A stretch of DNA of 64,000 nt from Tepidicaulis marinus (GTDB taxonomy: Bacteria > Pseudomonadota > Alphaproteobacteria > Parvibaculales > Parvibaculaceae). The DNA lies in assembly GCF_000739695.1 (NCBI RefSeq), contig NZ_BBIO01000002.1, positions 186,001 to 250,000 on the forward strand. Direction: 5' to 3'. Below are positions 33,102 to 44,909 of this stretch, in pieces. Positions within the stretch are counted from its first letter, which is position 1, and each line of letters begins with the position of its first letter. The notes below the pieces were generated by a model. That model saw nothing but the letters and a program-made list of their open reading frames with translations, was not told where the DNA came from and made no database searches. A program made the position numbers and the translations under genes.

Positions 33102-35549
33102 ATGAAACGCGTGAAGAAAGCGGCCAAATGGACCGGCATCGTGTTTGCGGGCGCGTTTGCCCTCATCGCCCTTCTCCTGCTCGACCGGTTTTCCGCCGCC
33201 CGCCATGCCGCCCCGCAAATTCAAGGTGAAAAAGAAATAGCATCTCCCCTTGGCAGCGGCGTGACATTGAGTGCGCCCGTCACAATCCTGCGGGATAAAA
33301 ACGCCGTCCCGCATATCGAAGCGCAAAGCGAAAAAGATGCGCTCTTTGCCCTGGGTTATGCCCACGGCCAGGACCGGCTCTGGCAGATGGAGCTGCTGCG
33401 CCGGGTGGGCACCGGACGGCTTGCGGAAGTCTTCGGCCCGCCCGCCCTTTCCATCGACCGGTTTTTCCGCACCCTCGGCTTTGCCCATCTGGCGGACGAT
33501 ACCTACGCCGCCCTGCCCGGCAGGATGAAGGAACTCCTCGATGCCTATGCCGCGGGCGTGAACGCCTCCATGAGCGGGCGGGACAAACCGCTGCCGCTCG
33601 AATTCCAGCTGCTCTTTCATGAGCCCGAACCCTGGGAACCGCGCCACTCGCTCGTCATGGTGAAAATGCTGGAGCTCGGCCTTTCGGCCAATGCCTTCGA
33701 TGAAATTGCCCGCGCGCGGCTCGCCCGCGATTTGCCGCCGACAAGCTTTCAGGAATTTTTCGGCGTCGAAGAAGAACTCGCCCCTTTTCTCGTCGGCGAA
33801 CTCGGCAAGCTTTTCCAAAAAGCGCCGCTGACCAAGACCGCGCGCGCCTGGCCCGATCTCGGCCCCATCGGCGCCTCCAATAATTGGGTGGTAAACGGAG
33901 AGCACACGAAAAGCGGCAAGCCGCTGCTCGCCAATGATCCCCATCTTGGCATGCTCGCCCCCTCGCTCTGGTATCTCGTGCATCTGCAAAACCCGGTGGA
34001 GGGTGAGACCCGCAATCTTGTGGGCGCGACGATCCCCGGCATTCCAAGCGTGCTGCTCGGCCGGAACGACCGCATCGCCTGGGGCCTTACGAATACGCGG
34101 CCCGACAGCCAGGACCTTTATATCGAGCGGCTCAATCCCGATAACCCGGATGAATATGAAACGCCCGATGGCTTTACCGCCTTTAAGGTGCGCGAGGAAC
34201 ACATCAAGGTACGCTTCGGCTCGGATGAAGTCTTGAGCGTCAGGGCGACGCGGCACGGCCCGGTACTGCCGGAGGAAACCGTGGCAGGCGCGCCCTCGCT
34301 CGAAGAAGGTCACGTCCTCGCGCTTTCCTGGCCGGCGCTTGAGCCCGGCGATCTGACGGTCGCGGCAGGATACAAGATGAGCCGGGCGGAAAATTTCACC
34401 GGCTTCCTGGAGGCGCTGCGCGATGACTATGTCAGCCCCATGCAGTCCATCGTCTATGGCGATATTGACGGGAATATCGGCTTCATCGCGCCGGCGCATA
34501 TTCCGCTACGCGGGCCGGCGCACCGCACGAAAGGGCTGATGCCCGCCGAAGGCTGGCTGCGCGACAATGACTGGACGGGCATCATTCCCTTCGACGCGCT
34601 GCCGCAGCTTTACAATCCGGCAAGCGGCATCATCGCGAGCGCCAATCACAAGATCGTGGACGACAATTATCCCTATCAGCTCGCGCTCGACTGGAACGCG
34701 CCTTACCGCGCCATTCGCATTTATGAACTCCTGGAAGCGGGAGACGATTTCAGCGCGCAGGATTTCGCCGACATGCAGATGGATAATCTCTCGCTTTTTG
34801 CCGCCCGCGTGCTGCCGCTTCTTCTGGAACATTTGCCTGAGGCGCAAAAAGAAACGGCGGAAGGCAAACTGCTTGCCGCCTGGAACCATTCCCTCGATGC
34901 GGAAAAAGCCGCCCCGCTCATCTATGCCGCCTTTCTGCACGAGCTGCCGAAAACACTCTGGGCGGATGAGCTTGGTGCCTCTTTTGACAGTTACAAAAGC
35001 CCGCGTTCGGATTTTCTCTTGAGCATCTTCGAAGGCACACGCCCCAATACCCATTGGTGCGATGACACGCAAACGGAAGAAACGGAAAGCTGCGCCGCCC
35101 AAACCGGCAAGGCCTTTGAGGCGGCAATGGCGGGGCTGCGCGAGACATATGGCGAAGACCCTCAAGATTGGACCTGGGGCGCGGCGCATCCCGTGATCAA
35201 CAACCACATTCCGGGCGGCAGCTTGCCCTTCCTGAAAAACTGGCTGAGCCTTGAAACGCCATCGGCGGGCGGCATACATACGCTGAACCGCGGGCAATAT
35301 CGAGGCAGCGGCGCGCGGCCCTTCGCCAATATCCATGCGGCAGGTTTCCGCGCCGTCTATGATTTTGCCGATCTCGACAGCTCGCTTTACATGATCTCGA
35401 CCGGCCAGTCGGGCGATCCTTATTCGCCCTTTTACGGCAATCTTCTGGAAGATTGGGCGGCGGGTCGAACCATCACCATTTCAACGCGCAAGGACGTTTA
35501 TCGCAAAGGCGCGCTTGGCACGCTCACCCTGCGCCCGGCAGACGGATAA
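33102..35549 (+). CDS. Penicillin acylase family Ntn hydrolase, membrane-anchored or exported
   Basis: An 815-residue precursor. A basic N-terminus and hydrophobic helix (residues 10-28) act as signal or anchor. The alpha-chain part includes FALGYAHGQDRLWQMELLRRVGTGRLAEVFG. Autocleavage should occur before Ser259 in IGASNNWVVNG, making Ser259 the beta-chain nucleophile; the SNNW box is intact. Later motifs are NDPHLGMLAPSLWYLVHL, IPGIPSVLLGRNDRIAWGLTN and IVYGDIDGNIGFIAPAHIP. Such acylases cleave side-chain amides of beta-lactams, acyl-homoserine lactones or other N-acyl compounds. A strong ribosome site (GAGAGG) precedes the start. Its 3' end lies 5 bp from the convergent TonB-like gene. Confidence 0.9.
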   Translation: MKRVKKAAKWTGIVFAGAFALIALLLLDRFSAARHAAPQIQGEKEIASPLGSGVTLSAPVTILRDKNAVPHIEAQSEKDALFALGYAHGQDRLWQMELLRRVGTGRLAEVFGPPALSIDRFFRTLGFAHLADDTYAALPGRMKELLDAYAAGVNASMSGRDKPLPLEFQLLFHEPEPWEPRHSLVMVKMLELGLSANAFDEIARARLARDLPPTSFQEFFGVEEELAPFLVGELGKLFQKAPLTKTARAWPDLGPIGASNNWVVNGEHTKSGKPLLANDPHLGMLAPSLWYLVHLQNPVEGETRNLVGATIPGIPSVLLGRNDRIAWGLTNTRPDSQDLYIERLNPDNPDEYETPDGFTAFKVREEHIKVRFGSDEVLSVRATRHGPVLPEETVAGAPSLEEGHVLALSWPALEPGDLTVAAGYKMSRAENFTGFLEALRDDYVSPMQSIVYGDIDGNIGFIAPAHIPLRGPAHRTKGLMPAEGWLRDNDWTGIIPFDALPQLYNPASGIIASANHKIVDDNYPYQLALDWNAPYRAIRIYELLEAGDDFSAQDFADMQMDNLSLFAARVLPLLLEHLPEAQKETAEGKLLAAWNHSLDAEKAAPLIYAAFLHELPKTLWADELGASFDSYKSPRSDFLLSIFEGTRPNTHWCDDTQTEETESCAAQTGKAFEAAMAGLRETYGEDPQDWTWGAAHPVINNHIPGGSLPFLKNWLSLETPSAGGIHTLNRGQYRGSGARPFANIHAAGFRAVYDFADLDSSLYMISTGQSGDPYSPFYGNLLEDWAAGRTITISTRKDVYRKGALGTLTLRPADG

Positions 35550-35554
35550 GACGC

Positions 35555-36427
35555 CTATTCGATCCGGCCTTCCGCCGCGATCCGGCCCGTCTTGCAATTG
35601 GGCGAGGAATCGATGGTGCATTTGTCGTAGTAAAGCCGCACCGTACCCGCCTCGTCCTGCGTCATGTGATAGCAGTCTTTGGTGTTGTAGGAGATGACGG
35701 GCGATTGATGGCACCACATGTCGCCTTCGATCCACCAGCGCCCTTCCCCGTCGAGGCTGCGCGTCGAAGAGCGCTGCTGGTGGAAAGTCTTGTAGTGGTA
35801 ATAGACGAGTTCCACTTCCGAGGTGCCGTCCGGCTTCAGCTTGATGATCGTGTTGGTGAGGCGGTTGCCGCCGGGAATATCGAGTCGGCCCATTTCCAGA
35901 TTGAACGTATGTCCGCTCGACTGCGCGGCGATCTGGATGCCGGTCATTTTCGTCCCCTTTTGATTGAGGATCGTCTGCTCGGCCTCGCCGCTGCTGCCTT
36001 GCGTATCGTCTCCGCTTGTACCCTCGGAGCGTCCGGCAACGGCCTGTTTGGCCTCGCCCTCAACGGGCGTCGTCTTTTCCGCCGTCTGGGGGCGTTCGGT
36101 CTTGCGCAGCGGAATGACGTCGGGCTTGGGCTTCGGTTTTTCCACGACTTCGGGTTTTTCGGCAGGCTTCGGCGCCGGGTCCACATCGGCATCGGCAAAG
36201 ACCGGGTCCTGCTGCGCCCCGTCAATATCCGCCGCCGCATCCACGTCCTGGCCCGGCCCGGCCGCAAGCTGAAAGAACAGCTTGTCGCCGCCGCCCGGCC
36301 CCGGCGCGCCGAAAATACCGCCCGCCAGCATGAAGAGGATAAAGGCCAGCACATGCACCAGCGCGGAGCCGATAAGAAACCGCTTTATATTCGGCGGTGA
36401 GGATGGCGATTGTTCGGCCAAACTCAT
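35555..36427 (-). CDS. TonB-like shuttle protein with a non-TonB C-terminal domain
   Basis: A 290-residue protein, the last gene of an exbB-exbD-exbD-like operon. One membrane helix spans about residues 16-38 and contains Ser21-x3-His25 (SALVH), the SxxxH pattern of the TonB/TolA helix that contacts ExbB-ExbD. A Pro/Lys/Glu-rich linker follows (84-125), then a Gly/Ser stretch. The C-terminal domain (163-290) has no TonB C-terminal motif. It is beta-rich with SGHTFNLEMG, IIKLKPDGTSEVELVYYH, GRWWIEGDMWCHQ and KDCYHMTQDEAG, and four cysteines (239, 252, 270, 278) that could make two disulfides. The GxWxxxGDxxC...CYxxxxD pattern recalls DUF995-like or lipocalin-like periplasmic domains. Strong ribosome site GGGAGGAG. 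Confidence 0.75.
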   Translation of the reverse strand: MSLAEQSPSSPPNIKRFLIGSALVHVLAFILFMLAGGIFGAPGPGGGDKLFFQLAAGPGQDVDAAADIDGAQQDPVFADADVDPAPKPAEKPEVVEKPKPKPDVIPLRKTERPQTAEKTTPVEGEAKQAVAGRSEGTSGDDTQGSSGEAEQTILNQKGTKMTGIQIAAQSSGHTFNLEMGRLDIPGGNRLTNTIIKLKPDGTSEVELVYYHYKTFHQQRSSTRSLDGEGRWWIEGDMWCHQSPVISYNTKDCYHMTQDEAGTVRLYYDKCTIDSSPNCKTGRIAAEGRIE

Positions 36428-36488
36428 GTTACTCCTCCCGTTACACCCCCGCCCGCGCCCGGCACCCGGCCCGGGCGGCGCGTTTCTT

Positions 36489-36896
36489 TTATTCCTTTGC
36501 TTGCTGCGTGATCAGCATGACCTCCTTCACGCCGATATTGCGCAGGCCCTCCATGAGCTGAATGAGATCATGGGCATCCGCCGCCTGATCCGCCTTCACC
36601 GTCACGGCCTCCACCGCGAGCTTGGAGAAGCGGTTGCGCAGCATGTAGGGCGCCATTTGCGCGTCCATGGTCAGGTCCTGAAAATGCACGAAGCCGTCCG
36701 CTTCCACATAAAGGATGAGTTCTTCTTCCTGCTTCTTGTCGTCCACCTGGCCGGTGGGAAGCTCGACATCCACCGTGTCGGTCTTCTTCAGCGTGCCGGT
36801 GAGAAGAAAGAAGATCAGCAGCAGAAACACTACATTTATGAGCGGCACCACGCTTTCGATCTGGCGGCGGGGCGGGTTTTCCTCGAACTCGATCAT
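36489..36896 (-). CDS. ExbD/TolR-family protein with Asn at the proton-carrying position
   Basis: A 135-residue biopolymer-transport protein with one N-terminal membrane helix (VVPLINVVFLLLIFFLLTGT, residues 16-35) and a periplasmic domain (VKADQAADAHDLIQLMEGLRNIG near 98-120). In ExbD/TolR/MotB-type stators the helix begins with an essential Asp (PLIDVVF); here it is Asn21. It overlaps the preceding exbD gene by 4 bp (ATGA), so the two ExbDs are made together and could form a heterodimer in the ExbB pore. Confidence 0.85.
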   Translation of the reverse strand: MIEFEENPPRRQIESVVPLINVVFLLLIFFLLTGTLKKTDTVDVELPTGQVDDKKQEEELILYVEADGFVHFQDLTMDAQMAPYMLRNRFSKLAVEAVTVKADQAADAHDLIQLMEGLRNIGVKEVMLITQQAKE

Positions 36897-37321
36897 TGCC
36901 CGCCCCCCACGCGTGTCGTGGCCACGGTGCGCGCGCCCGCCTGACGGGCCGCCTCCACCGCACTGATGAGCGGCTGCACCTGCACATCCTTCTCCGCCAG
37001 GATGGAGACCACCGCCTCCTTGTCCCCGCCGAGCGCCGCCTTGATGGCCGCCGAGAGCTCTTCGACCGGCGCGGCTTCCCCATCGACACGGAACGTACCG
37101 CCGGGGGCAACGCGCACCTCCACCACCGTCCAGTCGCTGTCGGTCTCGCTTGCCGCCTTGGGCGGGGTGATGACGCTCAACGTCTGCGTTTGCAGAAAGG
37201 TGCTTGCCAGCATGAAGAAGATCAGCAGCAAAAACACCACGTCGATCAGCGGCGTCAAAGAGACGATGCGCCGCTTGACCTCGTAGTGCCCGAAAAGATC
37301 GTCGCCGCTTCCATGTTGCAT
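36893..37321 (-). CDS. exbD: ExbD/TolR-family protein with intact proton-carrying Asp
   Basis: A 142-residue protein with a short basic cytoplasmic start, a membrane helix SLTPLIDVVFLLLIFFMLAST (residues 21-41) with Asp27 as the expected proton carrier, and a periplasmic domain ending VSILAEKDVQVQPLISAVEAARQAGA. It is 8 bp after the exbB-like gene and overlaps the second exbD by 4 bp. It would supply the proton-conducting helix of the stator. Confidence 0.9.
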   Translation of the reverse strand: MQHGSGDDLFGHYEVKRRIVSLTPLIDVVFLLLIFFMLASTFLQTQTLSVITPPKAASETDSDWTVVEVRVAPGGTFRVDGEAAPVEELSAAIKAALGGDKEAVVSILAEKDVQVQPLISAVEAARQAGARTVATTRVGGGQ

Positions 37322-37329
37322 GGCTGGCC

Positions 37330-38103
37330 TCAGACGAGTTTCAAAATGGCGAGCATGCGGCCCGTCGCGTCACGCAGACGCAAACGCACCTGGTCCACCC
37401 GGTTCTCGAAAAGATTGAGCGCCCCGATGGCGGGAATAGCAACGGCCAGACCCACGGCGGTCGTCAGCAGCGCTTCCCAGATGCCGCCGGAAAGAATCGC
37501 CGGATCGACCCGGTTGCCCGCCGCTTCAAGCTGCTGGAACGCCTCGATCATGCCGATCACCGTGCCGAGCAAGCCGAGCAAGGGCGAAATATTGCCGATC
37601 ACTTCCAGCCAGCGGAAATAGCCTTGCAGGGCGCCCAGCTCATTGCCGCCGACACGGGCCATCTCTTCGGCAGGCTGCATGCCATTGCGCTTCGCCTCGA
37701 CACCGGCCAGAAGCACGCGGGCGATGGGCGAGCGGTGCTTGCGCAAAATGTCTGCCGCCTCATCGAGCTTGCCGGCCGAGGCTTTGTCCAGCGCCGGTTC
37801 CAAGAACGCTTTGCGCGACAGGCCTGCACGCCAAAACTGCACCACCTTGAGCAGAATGACCGCCAGGGAGAAAACCGAAAGAATGATCAGGATAACGACG
37901 ATGGGGCCGCCCTTATCGACCAGCGGCACCAGATCGAGCAGCCCACCCCCATCGGCGGGAATGGATGCGGCGGCATCGCCCGCCGCCTGCGCCGCGCCTT
38001 CCGCGGCCTCTGCCGCCCCCTCGACGGCGCCTTCGGCCGCATTTACAGCTTCTTCAGCGTTTTCAGCGCTCGCTTCGGCGCCCGAACTCGTGACGTCGTC
38101 CAC
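37330..38103 (-). CDS. exbB: MotA/TolQ/ExbB proton-channel family protein
   Basis: A 257-residue protein, the first gene of the Ton-like operon. An Ala/Glu-rich periplasmic N-terminal extension (1-50) precedes three membrane helices: 67-88 (GPIVVILIILSVFSLAVILLK), 170-190 (ISPLLGLLGTVIGMIEAF) and 212-233 (LLTTAVGLAVAIPAIGALN). The last two carry the conserved TolQ/ExbB pore motifs GLLGTVxGM and TTAVGLxxAIPA. Start is GTG at 38103 with AGGGGGA upstream. The extended N-terminus is longer than in TolQ but seen in some ExbB proteins. Confidence 0.92.
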   Translation of the reverse strand: MDDVTSSGAEASAENAEEAVNAAEGAVEGAAEAAEGAAQAAGDAAASIPADGGGLLDLVPLVDKGGPIVVILIILSVFSLAVILLKVVQFWRAGLSRKAFLEPALDKASAGKLDEAADILRKHRSPIARVLLAGVEAKRNGMQPAEEMARVGGNELGALQGYFRWLEVIGNISPLLGLLGTVIGMIEAFQQLEAAGNRVDPAILSGGIWEALLTTAVGLAVAIPAIGALNLFENRVDQVRLRLRDATGRMLAILKLV

Positions 38104-38154
38104 ACTTTCCCCCTATGCTTGTTCTTCGCATTATGCGGTGGTAGAACCCACTTA

Positions 38155-38169
38155 GTAAATTAAATTTAC
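38155..38169. promoter_or_regulatory. Candidate operator between exbB-like and MarR genes
   Basis: GTAAATT-A-AATTTAC is a perfect inverted repeat (7-bp arms). A smaller one, ATCAT-GGA-ATGAT, follows at 38173-38185. Both lie in the 142-bp divergent promoter region, about 75-90 bases before the MarR start and 50-65 bases from the exbB-like start. It is a natural target for the divergent MarR regulator. Confidence 0.5.
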
Positions 38170-38245
38170 GAAATCATGGAATGATCGGCAGGTCAACGGT
38201 CATACCTGACTATTACAGAATAACAGCAATCGCGGCGCGAAACTC

Positions 38246-38863
38246 ATGCCCCAGAACCTGCCAGCCGATAAAAATAAAGTCAGCGCCGCGGGGCGAGCCG
38301 CGGCCGGGCCGGACGAGATTCCGAAGCCGCCCGCAGGCGAGACGGAGCTGGGGCCGGGCTATTTTCTGCAATTGCTGGAAGGTATAGGCACCTCGCTGGA
38401 ACAGGCCTATGACAGCGCCAACCCGCTGCCACGCGGCCACCAGCGCCTGATCCGCCAATTGCTGCTCAAGGACGGCCAGACCCAGACGGAACTCGCTACG
38501 GCTATGCACATCCACAAAGTGTCCGTCGGGCTCTACATCAACGATCTGGTGGAAATGGGTCTGGTGGAACGCCGCCGCCACCCCAAGGACGGGCGCGCCT
38601 ATTGCATCCATCTGACCGAATATCTGCACCGTTTCCGCCCGGAAGGCGAACGGGTCTTCGCCGAAATCCACGCCCATGCCATCAAGGGCCTGCCAACCGA
38701 GGAATACCGGATGTTGCTGCAGGCCATGGAGAAGATCTATCTCAACCTGCAGGGCCTGGCGCGGGCCCCTGACAAGGTAAAGCCGATTACGTCCCCAGCG
38801 CCTGATAGCCGCCCCGGTGATAAACCAGCGGGCGCCCCTCCTGTTCGGAAGAAAACGCCTTAA
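38246..38863 (+). CDS. MarR-family transcriptional regulator divergent from the Ton-like operon
   Basis: A 205-residue protein. A flexible Pro/Ala-rich N-terminus (1-34) and basic C-tail (180-205) flank a winged-helix core: LPRGHQRLIRQLLLKDGQTQTELATAMHIHKVSVGLYINDLVEMGLVERRRHPKDGRAYCIHLTE (the D-R wing is intact). One Cys only. It likely controls the divergent exbB operon. Its 3' end overlaps the convergent flavin reductase gene by 77 bp. Confidence 0.87.
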   Translation: MPQNLPADKNKVSAAGRAAAGPDEIPKPPAGETELGPGYFLQLLEGIGTSLEQAYDSANPLPRGHQRLIRQLLLKDGQTQTELATAMHIHKVSVGLYINDLVEMGLVERRRHPKDGRAYCIHLTEYLHRFRPEGERVFAEIHAHAIKGLPTEEYRMLLQAMEKIYLNLQGLARAPDKVKPITSPAPDSRPGDKPAGAPPVRKKTP

Positions 38864-39501: not shown

Positions 39502-40365
39502 ATGAAGTTTATCATCGGCATTGTCATCGTCGTCGTCGCTGTTTTCGGCGGTTATTGGGGCGTCGGCGGCCATTTGGGGGTACTCTGGCAGCCTTACGAA
39601 TTCGTGATCATTCTGGGCGCGGCCATCGGCGCCTTCGTCATCGGCAACCCGCCTTCCGTGCTCAAGGGCCTGGGCCGGACATTCAAGATCATGCTCAAGG
39701 GGCCCCAGTACAAAAAAGACTCCTATCTGGAATTGCTCGGCCTGCAATACACGCTCTTCAAATTGGCCAAAGCCAAAGGCAGCCTGGCGCTGGAAGCGCA
39801 TGTGGAGAACCCTTCGGAATCGGACATCTTCAACAGGTTCCCGGCCATTGCATCGGATCCGCGCGCGCTAGAATTCATGTGCGATTATTTGCGCCTTGTT
39901 ACGCTGGGCACGGAAAACTCCCACGAAGTCGAAGCGCTGATGGATGAGGAACTGGAAACCCTCAACCAGGAAGACGAGCAGATGGTCGCCGCCATTCAGT
40001 CGCTTGCAGACGGCACGCCTGCCCTCGGTATCGTGGCCGCGGTGCTCGGCGTTATTCACACGATGGGCTCGATCGACCAGCCGCCGGAAATTCTCGGCCA
40101 CCTCATCGGCGCGGCGCTTGTGGGCACGTTCTTCGGCGTGTTCTGCGCCTACGGCTTCTTCGCGCCCATGGCCATGGCGCTGAAGAATGCCTTTGAATCG
40201 GAAAACAAATTCTACCTCTCCATGAAGGCCGGCATTCTGGCGCATTTGCAAGGCTATGCGCCGGCGGTGTCGGTGGAATTTGCGCGTAAAGCCCTGATGA
40301 GCGATGTGCGCCCGACCTTTGCGGAAGTCGAAGAATCCACACAGAACAGTGCGCAGGCCGCTTAA
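39502..40365 (+). CDS. motA: Flagellar motor stator protein MotA
   Basis: A 287-residue inner-membrane protein of the proton-driven stator. Seen: four hydrophobic helices, GNPPSVLKGLGRTFKIML in the second loop region, MDEELETLNQEDEQMVAAIQSLADGTPALGIVAAVLGVIHTMGSI (with the conserved PALGIVAAVLG proline helix) and HLIGAALVGTFFGVFCAYGF. It is 66 bp upstream of motB. Its presence means the host probably swims by a flagellum. Confidence 0.95.
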   Translation: MKFIIGIVIVVVAVFGGYWGVGGHLGVLWQPYEFVIILGAAIGAFVIGNPPSVLKGLGRTFKIMLKGPQYKKDSYLELLGLQYTLFKLAKAKGSLALEAHVENPSESDIFNRFPAIASDPRALEFMCDYLRLVTLGTENSHEVEALMDEELETLNQEDEQMVAAIQSLADGTPALGIVAAVLGVIHTMGSIDQPPEILGHLIGAALVGTFFGVFCAYGFFAPMAMALKNAFESENKFYLSMKAGILAHLQGYAPAVSVEFARKALMSDVRPTFAEVEESTQNSAQAA

Positions 40366-40431
40366 CACGACCCTTGCGCTCCGGCACACAAGGCACAGAC
40401 CTGAAACAGTACGGAACGGGCGACCCAGACG

Positions 40432-41388
40432 GTGAACGAAGCGCAACCCATCATCAAGAAGATCAAGAAGGGCAAGCACCCGCACCATGGCGGCGCGTGG
40501 AAAATCGCCTATGCCGACTTCGTGACCGCGATGATGGCATTCTTCCTTCTGCTCTGGCTGATCTCCATGACGACGCCGGAGCAAAAGCAAGGACTGGCCG
40601 ACTATTTCGCACCGGCAAATGTCAGTCGCTCGACCAGCGGCTCGGGCGGCGTCATGGGCGGCACCGCCTTCGACATCGAAGGCTCGCGCATGGCCGGCAC
40701 CACCCCGCAAGTGGTGATGAACATTTCCGCTCCGCCCAAACCGAAAAATTCGTATAAGGATGAAAAGGACCGCGCCGAGTCCGCCGAGACGGTGAGTACC
40801 GTTCAGGACAAGCAGGGCCAGGAAGGCACGACCCAGGTCTTCGACGAGCAGCGCCAGCTGGCCGCCGCGACCTCGCGCGAGAAAGACGATTTCCGCTCCG
40901 CCGCCGAAAGCATCCGCCAGGCGCTGCGCGACATGCCGGATCTCGCCGAGCTTTCCAAGAACATATTGGTGGAAGAAACACCCGAAGGCCTGCAAATCCA
41001 GCTCGTCGATCAGGAAGGCCGCTCGATGTTCCCCGCCGGGATCGAGGAACCTTATGAGCGCACCCGGCGCCTCTTGGAAGAAGTTGCCAAGATCGTTCAG
41101 AAATTGCCGAACCGCATCGCCATTTCCGGCCACACCGATTCTGCGGCGAGCTATGGCGGCTCGGACAGCCAGAAATGGGATCTGACAGCCGACCGGGCCA
41201 ATGCCACGCGCCGCATCCTGCAAGGGGCCGGCGTGCCGGACGACCGCATCTACGAAGTGACCGGCAAGGCCGATACGCTGCCGCTCTTCCCCGAGGACCC
41301 GAGCTTGCCCGCCAACCGGCGCATTTCCATTCTCCTCAAGCGCGAGGCGCCTGTCGTGCCGCCCGATTTCGGCAACGGACGCGGCTGA
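40432..41388 (+). CDS. motB: Flagellar motor stator protein MotB
   Basis: A 318-residue stator partner. Basic N-terminus (IIKKIKKGKHPHHGGAWKIA), one helix YADFVTAMMAFFLLLWLIS with the proton-carrying Asp, a plug and linker, and a C-terminal OmpA-like peptidoglycan-binding domain (ISGHTDSAASYGGSDSQKWDLTADRANATRRIL). The start is GTG at 40432 with no strong ribosome site; the next in-frame ATG would remove the motor helix, so GTG is preferred. Confidence 0.94.
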   Translation: MNEAQPIIKKIKKGKHPHHGGAWKIAYADFVTAMMAFFLLLWLISMTTPEQKQGLADYFAPANVSRSTSGSGGVMGGTAFDIEGSRMAGTTPQVVMNISAPPKPKNSYKDEKDRAESAETVSTVQDKQGQEGTTQVFDEQRQLAAATSREKDDFRSAAESIRQALRDMPDLAELSKNILVEETPEGLQIQLVDQEGRSMFPAGIEEPYERTRRLLEEVAKIVQKLPNRIAISGHTDSAASYGGSDSQKWDLTADRANATRRILQGAGVPDDRIYEVTGKADTLPLFPEDPSLPANRRISILLKREAPVVPPDFGNGRG

Positions 41389-42061: not shown

Positions 42062-43942
42062 ATGAGGCCTATGGAAACTCTACTTCCAGATAGCTGGCAG
42101 ATGTGGGTGACGTTCGCTGCCATCGGCACCGCGGTCGTCTTCTACTCTATGAGCCGTTTTTCCCTGGAGCTGACGTCGCTGTTCGCCGTCGGCTTCCTGA
42201 TGATTTTCTTTCATCTGTTTCCCTTCGAAAACGCGCAAGGCGAAAACCTGCTCGACAGTTCCGTATTGCTGTCCGGTTTTGCCGCGCCCGCCCTCATTTC
42301 GGTTCTGGCATTGCTTGTGGTCGGCCAGGGGCTTTTCCATTCCGGCGCGCTCGACAAACCCACCCGCATCATCGCCTCCGCCGCAGGCAGCCGCCCGCAG
42401 CTTGTCGTCATAGCCACGTTGCTGCTGATCGCCTTTGTCAGCGCCTTTTTGAACAACACCCCCGTCGCGGTGATGTTCATTCCCGTACTTGCCACCCTTG
42501 CCGCGCGGCTGCGCCACCGGCCAAGCAAGCTGATGATGCCGCTTTCCTTCGTTTGCATTCTAGGCGGCATGACAACGCTGATCGGCTCGTCCACCAACCT
42601 GCTGGCCGCCGGCATTGCCAGCCGCACGGGCGTCGGCGAAATCGGTTTTTTCGATTTTACCGGGCTCGGCGTCATGCTGGCAGGTGTCGGCCTCGTCTAT
42701 GTGCTCTTTGTCGTACCGCGCATCCTGCCCGACCGGGAAGGCCTTGCGGACGAGCTGACGGGGGGCACCGGCAAGCAGTTCATCGCGCAAATTCAGATCA
42801 CTTACGACCATCCCCTTGTCGGCATGGAATCGGTCGCCGGGCTTTTTCCCCCGCTCAAAGACATGACCGTGCGCATGATCCAGCGGCGCGAACATGCCTT
42901 CCTGCCGCCTTTCGAGGATGTGCGGCTGCAGCCGGGCGATACCGTCATCATCGCCGCCACCCGCCAGGCGCTGACCGAAGTGCTCAAATCGCGCAGCGGG
43001 CTTTTCGAAAACATGCTGGAGGAAAACCACCAGAACCAGAACTGGGACGGCGAGCGCGGCGAGGAAACGCCGGAACGCCCCACCGGCGATCTGACCATGG
43101 TGGAAGTCGTCGTGGCGCCCGGCTCGCGGATGATCGGACGCAATATCGAACAGATCGGCTTTCGCTATGAAACCGCCTGCATCGTGCTCGGCATTCAGCG
43201 CCGCAGCCGGATGATCCGCGCGCGCATGAGCGATATCCGCCTGGAAGACGGCGATGTCTTGCTGGTGCTGGGTAAACCGAGCGATGTCGGCGGGCTCAGG
43301 CTCAACCGCGACGTTATCCCGCTGGAATGGTCGGCGACCGAACTGCCCGACCCGAGCCGGGCCCGGCGCGCCCGGTATGTTTTCGCAGGCACCGTGCTCG
43401 CCGCCGTTTCCGGCATCGTGCCCATCGAGGTGGCGGCGGTTCTGGGCGCGGCAGCCATGATCGCCTTCGACGTCTTGAACATCCGCCAGGCTGCGCGCGC
43501 CATCGACCGGCGGATTTTTCTGCTTGTGGGGGCGGCGCTTGCCATGGGCATCGCGCTCGATGTCACGGGGGGCGCGGCCTATCTGGCCGAGGGCGTGGTT
43601 AGCCTCTTTGCCGATGCCGGACCGGCGGTCGCGCTTTCCGCCTTTTTCCTCTTCATTGCCATTGCGACAAATATTCTGACCAATAATGCAACGGCCGTGC
43701 TCTTCGTGCCCATTGCCGCCAATGCCGCCAGCCAGTTCGGCGTCGATCCCATGATCTTCATTTACATGGTGATCTTCGCCGCCAATTGCTCCTTTGCCAC
43801 GCCCATGGGCTATCAGACGAACCTCTTGGTCATGGGGCCCGGCCATTACCAGTTTTCCGACTATATGCGCGCCGGCGTGCCGCTGATTCTTCTGCTCTGG
43901 ATAACCTTCTCTTTGCTCGCGCCCTGGTATTATGGTCTTTAA
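42062..43942 (+). CDS. SLC13/DASS-type permease with two RCK_C domains
   Basis: A 626-residue transporter. Two membrane halves (about residues 12-220 and 440-626) flank two regulatory TrkA-C/RCK_C domains (about 250-310 and 347-425: [29 protein letters not shown] and [25 protein letters not shown] ... [11 protein letters not shown]). The helix-turn motifs [15 protein letters not shown] and [15 protein letters not shown] are the SLC13 substrate/Na+ signature. It may transport sulfate, dicarboxylates or other anions; specificity cannot be inferred. Confidence 0.88.
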
Positions 43943-44043
43943 TAGACCTCTGGGAGGCCTTGGCGCGGGGCGCGGCCATGCTGCCTGTCCCGGCCACAAA
44001 AGCGGGCAAGCCACGAAAGCGGGCGAGAAAGGGACCACAGCGT

Positions 44044-44775
44044 ATGACGCGGCATGACCAGACGCAGTTTCCGCAGTTCTACATCACGGCCCCCTCGCCC
44101 TGCCCTTATCTGAAAGGCCGGTACGAGAAAAAGGTCTTTACCCATCTGGTCGGCGAACAGGCGGGTAGCCTGAACAATATGCTCTCCCAGGCCGGGTTCC
44201 GGCGCAGCCAGGGCATTGCCTACCGCCCGGCTTGCGACGGGTGCGATGCCTGCATATCGGTGCGCATCCGTGTGAACGAGTTCTCGCCATCGCGCAACAT
44301 GCGCCGCATCCTCAATGCCAATCAAAATCTCGTGCGGACGCGCAAACCGGCCCGCGCGACGGAAGAGCAATTTTCGCTGCTGCGCTCTTATTTGGATGCC
44401 CGCCATCAGCAAGGCGGCATGGCGGATATGACGGCCCTCGATTTCGTGTCCATGGTCGAGGACACCGCCGTGGACACCAATATCATCGAGTACCGCCCCC
44501 GGGCGGCCGATGCCGATAACCGGCTGATCGCAACGGCGCTCACCGACCGTCTCGAAGACGGATTGTCCATGGTCTATTCCTTTTTCGACCCGGACCTGAG
44601 CGCCCGGAGCCTTGGGACCTATCTCATTCTCGATCACATAGCGCTCGCCCGGGAGCTGGGCCTGCCTTACGTCTATCTGGGCTACTGGATCGAAGGATCG
44701 GCGAAAATGGCCTATAAGGCCCGTTTCAAGCCGCTGGAGGCGCTGACCCGCGAGGGCTGGCGGCTGATGGACTAA
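44044..44775 (+). CDS. bpt: Aspartate/glutamate leucyltransferase (Bpt/ATE family)
   Basis: A 243-residue aminoacyl-tRNA-protein transferase that adds Leu (Bpt) or Arg (Ate) to acidic N-termini in the N-degron pathway. Seen: [39 protein letters not shown] (conserved CxxCxxC box), [41 protein letters not shown] and [11 protein letters not shown]. The start at 44044 (AAAGGG upstream) gives the family length; the frame opens 86 codons earlier inside the permease gene. Leu versus Arg specificity follows the bacterial Bpt group but was not tested. Confidence 0.9.
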
Positions 44776-44909
44776 ACCATTCCCTCTATTCTGCCGCCCC
44801 TTGCAGCGCCATTGCACCTTGCGCCGCCCTGCCTATACTGGCCGCAAACCGGCGCTGCGGGGGATTTTAAGCGCGCCGACACAACAAGTCTTCGGGGAGA
44901 GCTTGCTCT

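Follow-up and report, generated by a model that had tools for sequence, protein, structure and literature searches.

The analysed window, a stretch of 64,000 nucleotides on contig C45 of the 3.48 Mb genome of Tepidicaulis marinus, carries an operon of four genes, exbB, exbD1, exbD2 and a gene for a TonB-like effector, all on the minus strand and head to tail (35555-38103). These genes very probably encode a dedicated Ton-type (5:2-family) inner-membrane motor that drives an arm tipped with a barrel domain. The operon and its conservation, the predicted fold, the TonB-type N-terminus and the monophyly of the barrel-type energisers come from the computations; we infer that the complex assembles, that its ExbDs pair as a heterodimer having a single protonatable site, and that the arm passes on force. 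Protons passing through ExbB around the two ExbDs would move the TonB-like arm, which would dock on ExbB via its SxxxH helix and be gripped at a D-box-like strand by the two ExbDs, one with Asp and the other with Asn. A disordered Pro/Lys/Glu linker would then span the periplasm outward, and a calycin-like barrel with four conserved Cys, replacing the receptor-binding domain of TonB, would engage a partner. Taken as a whole, motor plus barrel-tipped effector, this explanation appears to us reasonably probable. The features of the operon, in window positions, are listed below (TM, transmembrane; pLDDT, predicted local distance difference test score).

37330-38103, minus strand: exbB, 257 amino acids (aa), GTG start, proton-channel subunit of the MotA/TolQ/ExbB family (Pfam MotA_ExbB, E=1.2e-28)
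36893-37321, minus strand: exbD1, ExbD/TolR subunit with the protonatable Asp27 (codon 37243-37241) in the motif PLIDVVF (Pfam ExbD, E=9.5e-24)
36489-36896, minus strand: exbD2, ExbD/TolR subunit with Asn21 in place of Asp (codon 36836-36834) in the motif PLINVVF (Pfam ExbD, E=1.8e-18)
35555-36427, minus strand: gene of the TonB-like effector, 290 aa, no Pfam match
36317-36388, minus strand: TM helix of the effector, residues 14-37 (AlphaFold helix)
36353-36367, minus strand: S21xxxH25 motif within that helix (alignment of relatives; hhalign to canonical TonB N-termini)
36260-36280, minus strand: D-box-like strand, residues 50-56, LFFQLAA, the common form being VTFQLAA (published D-box pattern and spacing)
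35957-36259, minus strand: Pro/Lys/Glu-rich periplasmic linker, mostly disordered (low pLDDT)
35558-35956, minus strand: C-terminal barrel domain, residues 158-290, with Cys239, Cys252, Cys270 and Cys278 invariant (AlphaFold, VIA-align, hhalign)

The genes are closely packed, with 8 bp between exbB and exbD1, a 4-bp overlap of exbD1 and exbD2 (gap of -4 bp), and 61 bp between exbD2 and the effector gene. The GTG start of exbB has AGGGGGAA in front, and its product carries the channel motifs GLLGTVIG and GGIWEALLTT; an exbB ortholog is found at the same position in 18 of the 20 family (Parvibaculaceae) loci read. A preliminary description, made from the sequence alone, had proposed four tightly spaced open reading frames (ORFs) for ExbB-, ExbD-, ExbD- and TonB-like proteins. 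Its coordinates hold, and Pfam recovers MotA_ExbB once and ExbD twice. Likewise, the residues it had singled out, Asp27, Asn21, Ser21 and His25, are located where claimed and are conserved well beyond chance in homologous operons.

The full-length AlphaFold model of the effector comprises the helix at residues 14-37, a disordered stretch of about 110 residues (43-149; residues 43-83 and 90-149 have a pLDDT below 50) and a folded domain starting at about residue 158. In the alignment, His25 is invariant in all 26 membrane-anchored relatives, of which 23 have the Ser. The N-terminal 75 residues of the barrel effectors match those of 13 canonical TonB proteins, taken from sister operons, with an hhalign probability of 93.4% (E 2.5e-7), whereas the barrel domain matches the tips of these TonBs at 0.1%, indicating that the arm is of the TonB type and the tip is not. 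The canonical tips do recover TonB/HasB structures in the PDB. TonB_C (PF03544) does not match the effector gene, although it matches elsewhere in the genome at two places, and a weak NCBIfam match to TonB (E 0.004) is confined to the Pro/Lys linker. The claim of the preliminary description that the C-terminal domain differs from that of TonB is thus borne out.

In canonical TonB, the D-box is a strand in which hydrophobic and hydrophilic residues alternate; it lies 10-15 residues past the TM helix and is captured by an ExbD dimer (PMC10907165, PMC12905483). The D-box-like strand of the effector matches both the published alternation (PMC10907165) and the distance from the TM helix (PMC12905483). 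A VTFQLAA-like strand is conserved in the aligned effectors that have their own energiser, i.e. an adjacent exbB-exbD-exbD set. In two lineages that have lost this set the strand is altered: that of G015 reads MKYQRAA, with the pattern broken, and that of G002 reads LEVTLVH, which is D-box-like yet of another type. Such changes are expected if the strand has to fit the ExbD pair of its own operon, though two cases are few.

The tip itself has nothing usable among its matches in Pfam, NCBIfam or PDB sequence searches, whether with the effector or with the alignment of its C-terminal domain. The AlphaFold model of residues 157-290, built with 32 relatives, has a mean pLDDT of 85.9 and shows one helix and eight strands. 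The best Foldseek matches to this model are lipocalin-like Bacteroides proteins, with E 6e-3 and weaker. In VIA-align the top match is the periplasmic domain of ToxS (8u2f; Z 10.7, root-mean-square deviation 2.5 over 111 residues, about 11% identity), followed by designed (de novo) barrels at Z 9.0, another ToxS structure (8alo) at 8.6, lipocalin-like proteins at 7.5-8.0 and VtrC at 7.3. We therefore read the predicted effector tip as a calycin-like eight-stranded barrel; Z values of 8-10 support a common strand arrangement of the modelled domain, not a common function. Furthermore, the four Cys of the barrel are invariant even among remote relatives, which suggests two disulfides. A TonB or TolA C-terminal fold, named in advance as the outcome that would contradict the preliminary description, was sought and not found, AlphaFold predicting the eight-stranded barrel instead. 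The TolA fold is absent from the fold-search matches, an absence that does not exclude it, and there is no PDB sequence match; the absence of TonB and TolA from the fold-search lists was given no weight as proof.

The resemblance to ToxS and VtrC, and to bacterial lipocalins, lies in the predicted fold of a small periplasmic calycin-like barrel. On the other hand, the effector barrel has no sequence match to ToxS/VtrC, is carried on a Ton-type arm and possesses four invariant Cys. It could be mainly a periplasmic sensor like these two proteins, the motor part being gated by the barrel or serving to relay a signal, not to move a load. Both ToxS structures and VtrC figure among the best fold matches, as a sensor would predict, and a secreted copy of the barrel alone stands beside the operon in one genome. 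However, the partner of ToxS and of VtrC is a DNA-binding membrane protein (PMC9214523), and none is encoded here; moreover, a complete proton-channel set with a conserved Asp exceeds the needs of a sensor. We regard a sensor as unlikely, and return to a barrel moved by the motor.

Two observations concern the barrel domain itself. The secreted barrel-only copy, in G028 (L050 8769-9458), directly adjoins a full operon. Weak relatives of the domain include small secreted proteins and the tail of a serine/threonine kinase (L131 7059-9155), none of them in Pfam, suggesting a wider family of domains that has no name.

The energiser is distinguished by its pair of unequal ExbDs. In 35 barrel-type operons, including that of the window, ExbD1 has Asp in all and ExbD2 has Asn in all but one, where it is Ser. 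Among 22 more exbB-exbD-exbD loci from Alphaproteobacteria, a sample biased by having been fetched by exbD2 similarity, 20 show the same split, one is Asp/Asp and one is unresolved. The canonical exbB-exbD-exbD-tonB operon of the same genome, on contig C31, also has an Asp/Asn pair, whereas the Tol-type and other paired ExbDs of these genomes retain Asp. Judged from these sequences, the Asp/Asn pair is a natural and widespread 5:2 motor variant, older and wider in distribution than the barrel-tipped machine. Asn21 as the hallmark of a new machine is hence ruled out, since canonical TonB operons have the same pair. Of the distinct trans-envelope machine put forward in the preliminary description, the Ton-like energised module with a non-TonB tip stands; Asn21 is not peculiar to it.

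In the tree of ExbB, ExbD1 and ExbD2 together, the barrel-type energisers form a single clade with 100/100 support within the Asp/Asn family, so the TonB tip was probably replaced once. Recent paralogy with the TonB operon of the same genome is not supported by this tree, the energiser of the latter (L054) grouping with L181, outside the barrel clade. If the two ExbDs form a heterodimer, the motor would have one protonatable site in its axle. In current motor structures two Asp point in opposite directions, an asymmetry thought to be important for proton flow (PMC12905483). Whether a 5:2 motor requires two protonation sites can be asked of the Asp/Asn pair, a natural test case spread across many Alphaproteobacteria.

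Two side observations were made on these energisers. Replacement of the proton-binding Asp of one ExbD by Asn recurs, at 36834-36836 of the window and in canonical operons (L001, L160, L170-L191). The Glu of the ExbB motif GGIWEALLTT, which we take to be the counterpart of E. coli ExbB Glu176, is not conserved in the Asp/Asn family (window exbB, L006, L014, L170 and others), where Glu, Val, Gln, Ala, Thr, Ile and Leu occur.

Comparison with known systems places the operon in the Ton/Tol kind: it would work in a Ton-like way, and its tip is not TonB_C. As in ExbB-ExbD-TonB systems, there is an ExbB and ExbD energiser with Asp in ExbD1, an SxxxH TM helix, a strand that is D-box-like in pattern and spacing, and a Pro/Lys-rich linker; unlike in these systems, the effector carries a predicted eight-stranded barrel instead of TonB_C, the ExbDs are one with Asp and one with Asn, and no receptor lies nearby. 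The tonB1-exbB1-exbD1-exbD2 operon of Sphingobium SYK-6 (PMC8599685) similarly combines one exbB, two exbD and a TonB-type gene, but both of its ExbDs keep Asp-25, its effector gene is annotated as TonB and the gene order differs. No description of this exact operon type or of the Asp/Asn pair was found in the open-licence papers searched, which is not proof that none has been published.

With its Ton-type motor and N-terminus, the effector could still drive TonB-dependent receptors, via their plugs or TonB boxes, the barrel merely substituting for the TonB tip. Indeed, the genome has six Plug-domain genes. However, none of them lies within about 38 kb of the operon, and receptor genes are missing from the shared neighbours of the 20 family loci. 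This agrees with the preliminary description, which had noted no adjacent TonB-dependent receptor: there is none within the window, and the nearest Plug-domain gene is at C45:262595, about 38 kb off. The same genome has, moreover, the canonical operon on C31, whose tonB carries a TonB_C tip and which lies about 6 and 14 kb from two Plug genes, as well as a second TonB_C gene. Such a substitution is quite unlikely, and, given the non-TonB tip, the barrel-tipped motor probably acts on something other than the known nutrient receptors.

The operon shares with Tol-Pal (TolQ-TolR-TolA) a homologous energiser and a trans-periplasmic arm, and TolA also has an SHLS-type helix (PMC10907165); a TolA-type tip was not found in the effector. 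The barrel could accordingly play a Tol-like role, holding peptidoglycan or an outer-membrane lipoprotein and stabilising the envelope, for example in division. This would suit the order-wide conservation described below, which fits a housekeeping role, and the best score of ExbB is against TolQ, though under the cut-off of the TolQ family. Against it, a separate Tol system is present on contig C26 (L053, L060) with a TolA-like gene downstream, and neither Pal nor TolB stands beside or is linked to the operon. We consider a Tol-like role improbable next to a barrel-tipped arm with a load of its own. The operon also differs from the MotAB flagellar stator, its B-type subunits being ExbD/TolR proteins of 135-142 aa devoid of an OmpA-like peptidoglycan-binding domain.

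The effector is conserved throughout the order, the barrel-tipped form being present in 39 of 40 genomes and in all 27 near-complete ones. A search of 61 genomes found it in 36, every one within the family, and the named relatives recovered via the barrel domain are nearly all from Parvibaculum or other Parvibaculaceae/Rhodobiaceae. Barrel-domain matches of any kind occur in 19 of the 385 genomes of a class sample, and those in a phylum sample of 398 genomes are confined to the same class. Full operons exist in two further alphaproteobacterial families, f126 and f167 (L119-L122). Remote SxxxH arms with a related tip and no adjacent exbB/exbD were seen in f42, f54 and f4, and a related protein of f99 lacks SxxxH.

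The effector occurs without exbB-exbD-exbD at L034 9446-10384 and at L044 14069-14827 (identical to L024). These lineages, together with the Asn-bearing ExbD, raise the question of whether the motor part is dispensable or decaying and the effector works without proton power. In G002 and G015 the locus lacks exbB-exbD-exbD, and the ExbDs read at other places include no Asp/Asn pair; nevertheless both keep the effector and an upstream palindrome; distant relatives in other families, too, have an SxxxH effector with no adjacent exbB/exbD. However, the Asp/Asn pair is conserved over many alphaproteobacterial families and is not eroding, and the TM His is retained even in lineages devoid of their own energiser, as expected if the effector borrows another ExbB/ExbD. 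An effector independent of proton power is highly unlikely compared with a motor-driven arm.

Upstream of exbB, the intergenic region and the divergent gene carry two further features:

38152-38172, no strand: predicted conserved palindromic operator TTAGTAAATTAAATTTACGAA, with the core TAGTAA-N7-TTACTA at 38153-38171, between exbB and marR
38246-38863, plus strand: divergent gene for a MarR-family regulator (Pfam MarR_2, 1.8e-9)

The palindrome core has one match in each of 20 Parvibaculaceae loci of 19.8-19.9 kb, always intergenic before exbB or the lone effector gene and with a varying spacer sequence. The marR gene keeps this divergent placement at nearly all of the family loci that were read, and was not found adjacent in G023 (L048). 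The palindrome is retained there, as well as in G002 and G015, where exbB-exbD-exbD was lost; it was not found in the f126 and f167 operons, outside the family. From this arrangement, the MarR regulator probably controls the operon and would bind the palindrome. Further copies recur at orthologous positions with spacers that vary: immediately before a DUF1329 gene (G000 and five genomes of g3, hence two genera; L211, L222-L226), where an MFS_2 transporter gene begins (G000 and genomes of g5), and upstream of the gene of a small secreted protein in g5. DUF1329 proteins are LolA-like, and one of them, AmeB of Castellaniella, was reported to be essential for growth on monoterpenes (PMC6394551).

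Together, the barrel fold and the sites at the DUF1329 and MFS_2 genes point weakly to hydrophobic molecules or lipids. The job we would tentatively assign to the machine is to act, under MarR control, on a hydrophobic ligand or on an outer-envelope partner associated with lipids or lipoproteins. Bolder, and in our opinion doubtful, is the proposal that the proton-powered motor, with an ExbD heterodimer offering one protonatable axle subunit, drives a tethered lipocalin-like barrel that moves hydrophobic molecules or lipids, or remodels a lipid-associated partner, across the periplasm, as a third trans-envelope machine of the Ton/Tol type.

Several results weigh against the explanation favoured here. 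The structural match of the tip is of moderate strength (best Foldseek E 6e-3; Z 10.7 for ToxS versus 9.0 for de novo barrels), and calycin barrels have many roles other than lipid binding. Genome-wide totals of the palindrome in the 18 genomes searched are barely above those of a reversed-pattern control, so single sites elsewhere are not trusted and only the conserved positions of the sites suggest a shared regulon. Two lineages (g2, in which G002 was read, and G015) keep the effector after the loss of exbB-exbD-exbD at the locus, and tight coupling of effector and motor is consequently not obligatory. Finally, the neighbourhood survey suggested in the preliminary description in search of a conserved outer-membrane partner yielded no such adjacent gene in the family loci read.

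Ton and Tol are regarded as two machines with two tips. A different tip on a motor conserved across a whole order would make the energised arm a modular part, adaptable to new loads; the barrel, as a defined domain, provides a handle for finding the load.

The operon is flanked by marR, a flavin reductase gene and motAB on one side, and by penicillin acylase, dehydrogenase and decarboxylase genes on the other. The downstream ornithine-decarboxylase-like and hydroxyisobutyrate-dehydrogenase-like genes were considered as partners and rejected: they are syntenic but look functionally unrelated and lie 67-85 bp or more away. The penicillin-acylase-family gene (33102-35549, plus strand) stands between the effector and dehydrogenase genes in g1, g2 and g3, and is missing there in the g4 and g5 loci read. 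The motA-motB pair (39502-41388 of the window) lies beside the exbB-exbD-exbD operon in nearly every family locus read, a conserved synteny of two motors of the same superfamily. Further away, an ORF of 292 aa (43939-44817, minus strand) with no Pfam match is 31-64% identical across the family.

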